A DNA stretch of 37,838 nt from an uncultured Sphingomonas sp. Its GTDB lineage: Bacteria; Pseudomonadota; Alphaproteobacteria; Sphingomonadales; Sphingomonadaceae. The DNA lies in NCBI RefSeq assembly GCF_902806285.1, contig NZ_CADCWA010000190.1:1-37838 (forward strand), in the 5' to 3' direction. The translations under genes were made by a program, and so were the position numbers. Positions 3,726-10,184 of the stretch are shown here, in pieces. Under the pieces are notes generated by a model. That model ran no database searches, was not told the DNA's origin, and worked only from the letters and a program-made list of their open reading frames with translations. Every line of letters begins with the position of its first letter. Position 1 is the stretch's first letter.

Positions 3726-5747
3726 ATGTCCAAGATGTTCAAGATTTCGCTCCCGGACGGGTCGGTCCGGGAGGTGCCCGAAGGTTCGACGCCCGCCGAC
3801 GTCGCGGCGGCGATCGGGCCGGGCCTTGCCAAGGCGGCGCTGGCGGCGCGGGTCAACGGCGAGGTGCGAGACATTACCCGCCCGTTCGAGGAAGACGCCG
3901 AGCTCGCGCTGATCACCGCGCGGGACGAGAAGGACGCGCTGGAGCTGGTACGCCACGACTTCGCGCATGTGCTCGCCGAAGCGGTGCAGAATCTTTACCC
4001 CGGAACGCAGATCACCTTCGGACCGGCGACGGACGACGGCTTCTACTACGACTTCGCGCCCGCGCCGGGCCGCGGTCCCTTCACCGAGGAAGACCTGCCC
4101 GCAATCGAGGAGGAGATGCGCCGCGTCATCGCGCGCGATGAGCTGCTGATCCGTGAGGTCTGGCAGCGCGAGGACGTGCGCGACTTCTTCCGGCGCACGG
4201 GCGAGACGTTCAAGGCCGAGTGGGTGATGGAGCTGCCCGAAGGCAAGCCGATCACCATGTACCGGTCGGGCCAAGGCGACGGCAAGTGGCTGGACCTGTG
4301 CCGCGGGCCGCACCTCGCCTCCACCGGCAAGCTCGATCCGCAGGCATTCAAGCTGACGCGCGTGTCGGGGGCCTATTGGCGCGGCGATCCGGCCAACCCA
4401 ATGCTGAGCCGCATCTACGGCACCGCGTGGCTCAACAAGAAGCAGCTTGCCGAGCACCTCGTCCGGCTGGAGGAAGCGACCAAGCGCGACCATCGCAAGA
4501 TCGGGCGCGAGATGGACCTGTTCCACCTGCAGGAGGAGGCGCACGGGTCCGTTTTCTGGCACGCGCACGGCTTTGTTATCTGGCGTCAGCTTGAAGCTTA
4601 TATGCGGCGGCGGATCGACGAGGCCGGCTACGAGGAGATCAAGACCCCGCAGCTGATGGACGCTCGACAATGGGAGCGCTCGGGTCATTGGGGCAAGTAC
4701 CGCGAGAACATGTTCGTGGTACCCGACGAGGTTCCGGGCACCGACGAAGCGGCGCCGGTGCTATCGGGCGGGGCAGACCTCATGGCTTTGAAGCCGATGA
4801 ATTGCCCAGGGCACGTGCTCGTCTTCAAGCAGGGGATCACCAGCTACAAGGAGCTGCCGATCCGCTTGTACGAGAACGGCAGCTGCCATCGCAACGAGCC
4901 GCATGGTGCGCTGCATGGGCTGATGCGCGTGCGCCAGTTCACTCAGGACGACGCACATATCTTCTGCCGCGAAGATCAGATCGTGGAGGAAGCGCGCGCC
5001 TTCTGCGCGCTTGCGGACCGCATCTACAAGGATTTCGGGTTCACCTACTCGATCAAGCTGGCACTGCGCCCCGACAACCGCTTCGGCAGCGAGACAGACT
5101 GGGACAAGGCGGAGGCCGAGCTGCGCGATGCCGTGGTTGCGGCGGGCATGGCGACCCCCGAGTTCGGCTGGGAGGAACTGCCTGGAGAAGGCGCCTTCTA
5201 TGCCCCCAAGCTGGAGTGGCACCTGACGGACGCGATCGGTCGGACCTGGCAGGTCGGCACCATCCAGTCCGACCGAGTGCTGCCCGAGCGGCTGGACGCG
5301 GTCTACGTAGGCGAGGACGGGCAGAGGCACCGGCCGGTCATGCTGCACCGGGCGATCTTCGGCTCCTACGAGCGGTTCATCGGCATCCTGATCGAACATT
5401 ATGCCGGCAGGTTCCCGCTGTGGCTGGCGCCGGTGCAGGCGATTGTGGCGACGATCGTGTCCGAGGCGGACAGCTACGCCGGGGAGGTCGCGGCCAAGCT
5501 GCGGGCGGCGGGGCTGCGAGTGGACACCGATCTTCGTAACGAGAAGATTAACTACAAGGTGCGCGAGCATAGCCTGGCCAAGGTCCCGCTGCTGCTGGTG
5601 GTCGGCAAGCGTGAGGCGGAGGAAGGCACGATCGCGGTCCGCCGCCTCGGCAGCGACGAGCGTCAGCAGATGATGCGACTGGACGAGGCCATCGCCGCCT
5701 TCGCGGCCGAAGCGGTGCCGCCCGACCTTGCCCCCAAGCAGGGCTGA
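3726..5747 (+). CDS. thrS: Threonyl-tRNA synthetase
   Basis: A full-length class II aminoacyl-tRNA synthetase (673 aa) that charges tRNA-Thr. The order is an N-terminal TGS domain (about 1-65), the editing domain ([10 protein letters not shown] and DLCRGPHL), the catalytic core and an anticodon-binding domain (from about residue 565). Core motifs are [11 protein letters not shown] with the zinc cysteine, motif 2 ([19 protein letters not shown]) and motif 3 ([19 protein letters not shown]). A second ATG at 3735 is possible. There is no recognisable T-box leader. A small gene overlaps or abuts its 3' end and infC follows, the common thrS-infC arrangement. Confidence 0.97.
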
Positions 5748-6039
5748 GTTGGAGCGGCGCTGGCTGCACCTCACGCGGGTTGAGTTGCCGGGGCACGCGG
5801 ACGAGCGCGGCTGGCCGCTGCGCTTCGACCATTGCTTCCAGCGCGTCCTGCTCGACGCGGCCTGCGGTTGTTGCTGGTACGAGCGGATCGAGCGACGGCC
5901 CGCCTACCGCCATGCGCCCGACGCGCTGCTGGCGAGAGCGGTGGAACTCGGCGGGGAGCTGCTCGCGGGACGGGCGGACCTGTCCGCGCTTAACCGCCAG
6001 TCGCTGGCGTGGCGCGGCCGGCTGCGATCCGCCGACTGA
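5728..6039 (+). CDS. Small conserved-looking protein between thrS and infC
   Basis: A 103-aa protein with no assigned function that I can support. Its core is [20 protein letters not shown], then [20 protein letters not shown] and [13 protein letters not shown]. It resembles short uncharacterised alphaproteobacterial proteins that I recall with a similar FDHCF...RPAYRH...SLAWRG pattern. It is cysteine-rich in the middle (CGCCW), with no signal peptide or membrane segment. No ATG is available. TTG at 5728 overlaps thrS by 20 bases, and TTG at 5749 directly follows the thrS stop and would give a 96-aa product. Either fits coupling to thrS. Confidence 0.68.
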
Positions 6040-6132
6040 CGCCATGCCGCCACAACCTGCGGCGAATCCGCCGAAGGGCCTTCCAATCGCGCTCTCCAGG
6101 CCTTAGCTCGCGACGCTAGAACCAATTGCATC

Positions 6133-6148
6133 AGGAGACTCCGCTATA
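6133..6148 (+). promoter_or_regulatory. Shine-Dalgarno and AUA start of infC
   Basis: AGGAG at 6133-6137 lies 8 bases before an ATA codon at 6146-6148. The infC frame opens after a TAG at 6104-6106 and contains no ATG, GTG, TTG or CTG before the internal GTG at 6236. The conserved N-terminal sequence of IF3 begins upstream of that GTG. The ATA is therefore the best start. Rare start codons are the established basis of IF3 autoregulation in enterobacteria (AUU in E. coli infC). Confidence 0.75.
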
Positions 6149-6691
6149 CCACCGCCCTATCCGCGCCGTCCGCAGGCGCCGCCGCAGTTCACCGGCCCTC
6201 GCTACAACGAGTTCATCCAATCGCAGAAGGTTCGGGTGATCGACGAGAACGGCGAGAATCTGGGCGTGATGTATACGCGCGAAGCTTATGAGCAGGCGGT
6301 GGGCGTCGGGCTCGACCTGGTCGAAATCAGCCCCAACGCCGACCCGCCCGTTGCCAAGTTCCTCGACATCGGCCGCTTCAAATATGAAGCGCAGAAAAAG
6401 GCCAACGAGCAGCGCAAGAAGCAGAAGACGCAGGAGATCAAGGAGATCAAGATGCGTCCCAACATCGACGACCACGACTACGACACGAAGATGAAGAAGG
6501 TCGTCGAGTTCCTGGAGGAAGGCGACAAGGTCAAGGTGACCATGCGCTTCCGCGGCCGCGAGATGGCGCACGGCCAACTCGGCATGGCGGTACTCCAGCG
6601 GGTGGCGGAGGAGACGGGCGGGATCGCCAAGGTCGAGGCGCACCCGCGGATGGAAGGCCGGCAAATGCTGATGGTTCTCTCGCCGAAGTAA
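6146..6691 (+). CDS. infC: Translation initiation factor IF-3 with AUA start
   Basis: IF3 binds the 30S subunit and enforces correct start-codon choice. From the ATA at 6146 the protein is 181 aa, the normal length. The N-domain contains GPRYNEFIQSQKVRVIDENG and the LDLVEISPNADPPVAKFLD stretch. A lysine-rich linker (KYEAQKKANEQRKKQKTQE) follows, then the C-domain with IKMRPNIDDHDYDTKMKKV and MRFRGREMAHGQLGM. Starting at GTG 6236 would delete the conserved GPRYNEFI region. The AUA start preceded by AGGAG suggests that IF3 represses its own translation. rpmI and rplT, frequent downstream partners, are not found after it here. Confidence 0.92.
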   Translation: MPPPYPRRPQAPPQFTGPRYNEFIQSQKVRVIDENGENLGVMYTREAYEQAVGVGLDLVEISPNADPPVAKFLDIGRFKYEAQKKANEQRKKQKTQEIKEIKMRPNIDDHDYDTKMKKVVEFLEEGDKVKVTMRFRGREMAHGQLGMAVLQRVAEETGGIAKVEAHPRMEGRQMLMVLSPK

Positions 6692-6713
6692 CGGCAAGCC
6701 GAACCCAGCCCGC

Positions 6714-6933
6714 ATGGCGCGCGGGCCCGGCTGTCCCAAGTGCGGGTCCAGCATGGCGGCAGGCTTCGTCGGCCCGGGGTCACGGCACGAAGGTCGTTGC
6801 CAAGTGGATCGTCGGCGCCCCCGTCAGGGACATCTGGACCGGATCGGAGCTGCGTGGCCGTGATCAGCATGAGATCGCCATCCACCGTTGTGGACGCTGC
6901 GGTTGCCTTGAGAGTTACGCCGAGCCGACTTGA
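6714..6933 (+). pseudogene. Frameshifted small zinc-ribbon protein gene
   Basis: No intact ORF exists here, but two frames together give a coherent protein of about 72 aa. Frame A from ATG 6714 encodes GCPKCGSSMAAGFV. Frame B, one base on, encodes GHGTKVVAKWIVGAPVRDIW, then TGSELRGRDQHEIAIHRCGR and CGCLESYAEPT, ending at TGA 6931-6933. The two CxxC knuckles (CPKC and CGRC) make a typical zinc ribbon, and the layout matches small uncharacterised zinc-ribbon proteins. The shift falls between about 6765 and 6780, near a GGCCCGGGG run. A one-base insertion, a sequencing error or true gene decay are all possible. Confidence 0.65.
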
Positions 6934-6937
6934 GCGT

Positions 6938-6969
6938 GCTGCATTGCAGCGCATTTTTGCTGCATCGCA
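6938..6969. promoter_or_regulatory. TGC-rich dyad upstream of the TonB receptor, possible operator
   Basis: A perfect 13-base dyad GCTGCATTGCAGC (6938-6950) is followed by a half-matching copy, TTGCTGCATCGCA (about 6957-6969), after a short T-run. It lies about 120-150 bases before the receptor ATG, where an operator could sit. The CTGC-N3-GCAG form resembles the site described for PhaR, the polyhydroxyalkanoate regulator of Paracoccus. The match to that regulator is inference only. No convincing -35/-10 pair is assigned. Confidence 0.4.
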
Positions 6970-7088
6970 CTATGTTGCTCCTTTGTAACAGCGCGTGCGG
7001 ATTACTCCCCGTTAACCAGGCCCTTCGCTTCCCAAGCAACCCGACGCTGCATTAGCGTCCGCGCATCGATTTCTCGGAGGCATTTTCC

Positions 7089-10184
<3,096 letters not shown>

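Follow-up and report, generated by a model that had tools for sequence, protein, structure and literature searches.

The question raised by this locus is at which codon translation of infC, the gene for translation initiation factor IF-3 (IF3), begins, and why a codon rarely used for initiation should have been kept there. The window, i.e., the whole stretch of 37,838 nucleotides that was analysed, comes from an incomplete draft genome (86.91%). Direct reading of the infC frame in the window showed that ATG, GTG, TTG and CTG were absent from the upstream stop codon (Table 1) until the internal GTG at position 6236, and an ORF lister using ATG, GTG and TTG as starts opened the gene at this GTG, giving a product of 151 aa. 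The GTG is located 30 codons past the ATA at position 6146 and encodes residue 31 of the 181-aa product read from the ATA. The longer product matched TIGR00168 with 225 bits (cut-off 60) and the IF3_N profile over positions 2–70 of 70, and the product read from 6236 matched them with 210.3 bits and over positions 13–70, respectively. Within the 181 residues, IF3_N corresponded to residues 21–89 and IF3_C, matched except for its first profile position, to residues 97–181; the TIGR00168 score above the cut-off together with both Pfam domains identified the product as IF-3. The best solved relative in the PDB (8jsg chain A) was aligned from query residue 19, before the residue encoded by the GTG. 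The window therefore possesses an AUH codon (third base A, C or U) at Shine-Dalgarno (SD) distance and no NTG codon before the IF3 core. The preliminary description of this DNA had called attention to the missing start codons, to a conserved IF3 N-terminus ahead of GTG 6236 and to an AGGAG well spaced for ATA 6146. All three were borne out, by the direct reading, by the additional profile positions covered from 6146, and by the 8 nt lying between AGGAG and ATA; the mechanical lister also behaved as had been predicted for automated annotation, with a start at 6236 and the loss of about 30 residues.

Table 1. Coordinates of infC, its start region and the neighbouring genes in the window.
Feature	Position	Strand	Basis or remark
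thrS, threonine--tRNA ligase, upstream of infC	3726..5747	+	TIGR00418, 622.5 bits
-35-like element TTCCAA, putative (genus consensus TTTTCA)	6081..6086	+	two-part genus motif
-10-like element TAGCTC, putative	6104..6109	+	17 nt past the -35-like element; two-part genus motif
Upstream stop TAG, bounding the infC frame	6104..6106	+	direct reading
SD core AGGAG	6133..6137	+	8 nt before ATA; direct reading and family matches
infC, translation initiation factor IF-3	6146..6691	+	181 aa; start ATA, stop TAA; TIGR00168, IF3_N and IF3_C matches
ATA start codon	6146..6148	+	AUH at the aligned family codon; onset of codon periodicity
Internal GTG, start of the mechanical ORF caller	6236..6238	+	rejected as main infC start
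TonB-dependent receptor, next large gene downstream of infC	7089-10184		ORF list and profile match

The relatives were drawn from a genus set (infC match in 59/61 genomes; 57 loci from 56 genomes used), a family set (match in 149/149 genomes; 146 further loci) and a named-genome set (the best 80 of 578 confirmed). Pooling gave 283 loci, of which 269 were distinct over 190 nt, the 14 others being identical to another and left out. Setting aside locus L394, where the infC frame is broken and TCC stands at the aligned codon, left 268 readable distinct 5' ends. Also left out were G026 (gene across two contigs, its 5' part outside the collected sequences), G028 and G051 (3' fragments), G286, and the genomes G031, G036, G252 and G253 without an infC match. 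Two oddities were observed in this material. In L394 (genome G067, assembly 86% complete) infC appeared as two matches in different frames, perhaps because of a sequencing error, and the draft genome G047 carried two infC copies (L031 and L225), one of them at a contig end, possibly the sign of a mixed assembly.

The aligned start codon was ATA in 230, ATC in 36, ATT in 2 and NTG in none of the 268 readable sequences, a set of non-independent rows in which near relatives were kept. Counting L394 as the exception, AUH was found in 268/269 distinct sequences, and in the genus ATA was present at all 57 loci. The check on infC starts in relatives suggested in the preliminary description thus turned out in favour of the ATA, the aligned codon being AUH in 268/268 readable sequences and never ATG. 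The excess of ATA does not reflect isoleucine codon usage, since the available stretches of the same genes showed ATA at just 22 of 2156 internal Ile codons (ATC 1919, ATT 215). An SD match preceded the AUH in 267/268 family sequences, and in 252 the match ended 8 nt ahead of the start. The entropies of the three codon positions across the family were 1.87/1.83/1.82 for codons -8 to -6, showing no periodicity before the SD, and 0.73/0.89/1.60 for codons +1 to +4, so that periodicity begins at the AUH start. In-frame ATG, GTG or TTG codons were present soon after the AUH in 223/268 sequences and before it in 84/268, and were missing all the way from the upstream stop to codon 4 of the PRYN anchor in 37/268. 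The use of AUH would be forced in a minority only, because an in-frame NTG lies nearby in most family sequences. Taken together, these comparisons strongly support AUA as the start codon of infC.

A reason for keeping such a codon is offered by the properties of IF3. Codons ending in G (AUG, GUG, UUG) escape IF3 discrimination and AUU, AUC and AUA do not, according to the part of a review available to us (PMC4611024). In E. coli, IF3 autoregulates its own translation through an ATT start, as stated in the accessible portion of PMC5472188, and in a reconstituted system the share of full-length product made from AUU with the CAU anticodon drops at higher IF3 (accessible part of PMC10158994); AUA against the natural CAU anticodon was not found in the accessible part of this same IF3 codon survey. 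We consider it quite probable that infC is translated from AUA 6146 and that the AUH start lets IF3 limit its own synthesis. At this locus the proposal is built on sequence, namely the position of the start, the family-wide AUH and the avoidance of AUG, and repression and feedback by IF3 are likely by analogy with E. coli and with general IF3 biochemistry. In this model, the initiator tRNA would insert fMet at AUA 6146 despite a third-base mismatch, and the strong, well-placed SD would aid initiation. IF3 would oppose initiation at codons without a final G; when plentiful, it would reduce translation of its own mRNA, and when scarce it would permit more. An IF3-sensitive codon that is kept, insensitive codons that are absent and a strong SD are what feedback predicts. 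Of the autoregulation that the preliminary description saw behind the AUA, the sequence prediction (AUH kept, NTG avoided) therefore stood, and the regulation itself is carried over from E. coli. The pattern suggests an E. coli-type IF3 start-codon switch written with another letter, kept family-wide and in most of the relatives sampled.

It is also conceivable, and in our view rather unlikely, that the AUA start is genuine and just sets a constant low rate of translation, without IF3 feedback. Every sequence result reported here would fit low expression equally well. In S. aureus, AUA and AUU reporters of three other genes gave approximately 10% of the AUG level in poor medium, and a ccpN AUA reporter reached up to 30% in rich medium, as given in the available text of PMC13009471. 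GUG or UUG should however both lower expression and escape IF3, and they were found in 0/268 sequences, an absence that weighs less than that of ATG because these codons are two base changes away from ATA. The autocontrol in E. coli also speaks against a constant rate, as changing the infC AUU to AUG reportedly abolishes it (the title of Butler et al. 1987). The primary papers on this autocontrol are said to be those of Butler et al. 1986 and 1987 and Sacerdot et al. 1996.

The reading with feedback gains from the way in which the start codon has changed. A tree built from 267 infC genes gave 24 changes of the start codon in one parsimonious reconstruction: A to C 19 times, A to T once, C to A three times and C to T once, G being involved in none. 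A change from ATA to ATG at the start is silent in the protein, since fMet is incorporated from either codon. For comparison, 24 four-fold sites in these genes showed 60 changes from A, 27 of which ended in G. At this four-fold rate, the chance of finding no A to G among the 20 changes from A is about 6e-6 (0.55^20), and 5.9e-7 when taken over all 24 start-codon changes, both figures being approximate as they depend on one reconstruction, a single-gene tree, a skewed base composition and kin sequences. The related genes thus retained AUH and avoided an AUG that would be silent and a single base change away, and a silent AUG at the infC start seems to be selected against. Such avoidance may serve as a simple evolutionary sign of control via the start codon.

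That infC starts instead at GTG 6236, with the upstream part untranslated, or that this GTG yields a second, short form, appears very improbable. Besides being the choice of the ORF lister, the GTG was invariant in the genus (57/57 loci), the sole invariant codon among the 25 four-fold codons examined, and in the window it is preceded at 5 nt by the short SD-like AAGG (6227–6230), which is outside the six SD cores tested. In the family, the aligned codon was GTG in just 193 of the 268 sequences (GTC 60, GTT 8, GTA 7), and none of the six cores was present before this position in any of them (0/268). The 13 codons ahead of GTG 6236, mostly inside the IF3_N match, showed protein-like entropies of 0.53/0.43/1.29 in the family. 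With varying Val codons and no SD core, the GTG was rejected as the main start, with the reservation of its invariance in the genus. A start further upstream, e.g., at ATT 6125, the single other AUH codon ahead of ATA 6146 in the window frame, or at ACG 6113, is still less probable, as both codons are in frame past the stop but lie 5' of the SD, and the family alignment and the codon periodicity open at 6146.

The invariant GTG is part of a CGG GTG pair (6233–6238) that was synonymously constant in the genus. At its site before the GTG, CGG was present in 82%, although it accounts for just 11% of arginine codons over the infC stretch. The pair and the codon that follows it read GGGTGATC.

A promoter-like motif was observed in the infC leader. 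Its two parts, CTTTTCA ... YTANNTC, always spanned 30 nt and were present in 53/56 genus leaders (6080–6109 in the window), compared to 5/211 leaders elsewhere in the family. It ended mostly 34–36 nt before the ATA (36 nt in the window). The shuffle control (0.2 expected vs. 53) is too favourable, as the pattern was first noticed by eye and then tuned on the same leaders; the constant span of 30 nt, when 27 to 32 nt were permitted, is the stronger point. The motif is a putative promoter, which would give an infC leader of approximately 30 nt. A generic scan of positions 5700–7150 found no sigma-70 promoter. The consensus fold around the start, computed from 59 aligned sequences between -40 and +150, was weak (about -10 kcal/mol) and left the AUH unpaired, and the single-sequence fold of the window itself paired the AUA. 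No known RNA element was found in the window at the Rfam gathering score.

The genes surrounding infC are only in part those of E. coli. The infC-rpmI-rplT operon of E. coli was not seen, rplT being on a separate contig (C39) and a TonB-dependent receptor gene lying downstream. L20 control as in E. coli is not indicated, because rplT is elsewhere and no Rfam match reached the gathering score. Upstream, a small ORF (5749–6039) separates thrS from infC; region 5740–6036 gave no Pfam or NCBIfam match, and tblastn detected a relative of the ORF in just 1 of 110 family loci (L062).

Beyond the family, infC starts were assigned by hand from the SD spacing of in-frame AUH and NTG codons, without a family alignment. 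Among other Alphaproteobacteria (match in 65/67 genomes, two of them belonging to the family of the window, hence 63 loci), the hand-assigned start was ATA at 44 loci, ATC at 8, ATT at 3 and unclear or non-AUH at 8. The preliminary description had correctly recognized the AUA start; the codon is not special to this lineage, ATA being the commonest start in the alphaproteobacterial sample (44/63). ATA is not a class-wide rule either, since nine further alphaproteobacterial loci, found in the phylum sample (60/60 genomes matched), all had ATT. In that sample, AUH was assigned by hand at 50/52 further loci, the others being L179, from a 2.4 Mb genome, without an AUH start, and L260, which was ambiguous. 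In these hand assignments L252 and L261, with an ATG also close by, were counted as AUH, as were L272 and L273, which had no SD match.

The eight exceptions among the alphaproteobacterial loci, which lacked a clear AUH start, were of several kinds. L250 and L257 had a plain ATG start, L248 most likely ATG, and TTG was the sole option in L235; L242, L246, L247 and L256 were unclear. All eight came from genomes of ≤1.7 Mb (8/22 vs. 0/41, Fisher p 8e-5), a comparison that involves rough draft sizes, AT-rich leaders that are harder to read and related rows. It is possible, as a tentative idea, that the infC start codon is a conserved regulatory letter whose third base (A, C or U), for the most part fixed by lineage, tunes the IF3 set-point, and that Alphaproteobacteria lose this letter only where the feedback has been loosened by genome reduction. 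Species without an AUH infC start could be natural tests of what its loss costs.

A practical consequence concerns annotation: gene callers limited to ATG, GTG and TTG will truncate IF3, with a loss of 30 residues in the present case. A search of the open-licence literature gave, among the matches listed, no paper on the infC start of sphingomonads. In E. coli K-12, the infC sequence read here has GGAGG, 8 nt and an ATT start. As in the window, an AUH start stands behind a strong SD with thrS upstream. The differences are AUU instead of AUA, an infC-rpmI-rplT operon instead of an infC without rplT beside it, and a feedback that is demonstrated in E. coli and here proposed from sequence. The AUU start is shared by E. 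coli and B. subtilis in the part of PMC1805508 available to us. Streptomyces likewise has non-canonical starts as IF3 targets, according to the accessible text of PMC5472188. Its codons are different, ATC in infC, where mis-annotation was also noted, and GTC in sigR, a second target gene that is repressed by IF3. Xanthomonas euvesicatoria resembles the window in being a GC-rich proteobacterium with an infC lacking a common start codon and a database start that is too short; in the available part of PMC5559785, its start is ATT and was found by proteogenomics with measured peptides. The same codon as in the window is used by S. aureus, where an AUA start of infC was mapped by retapamulin ribosome profiling and autoregulation was considered likely by the authors (available text of PMC13009471). 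S. aureus belongs to another phylum, and its start was mapped experimentally, whereas the start in the window was located by conservation. AUU, AUC and AUA starts of infC are thus already in print, and the sphingomonad AUA is an added case.
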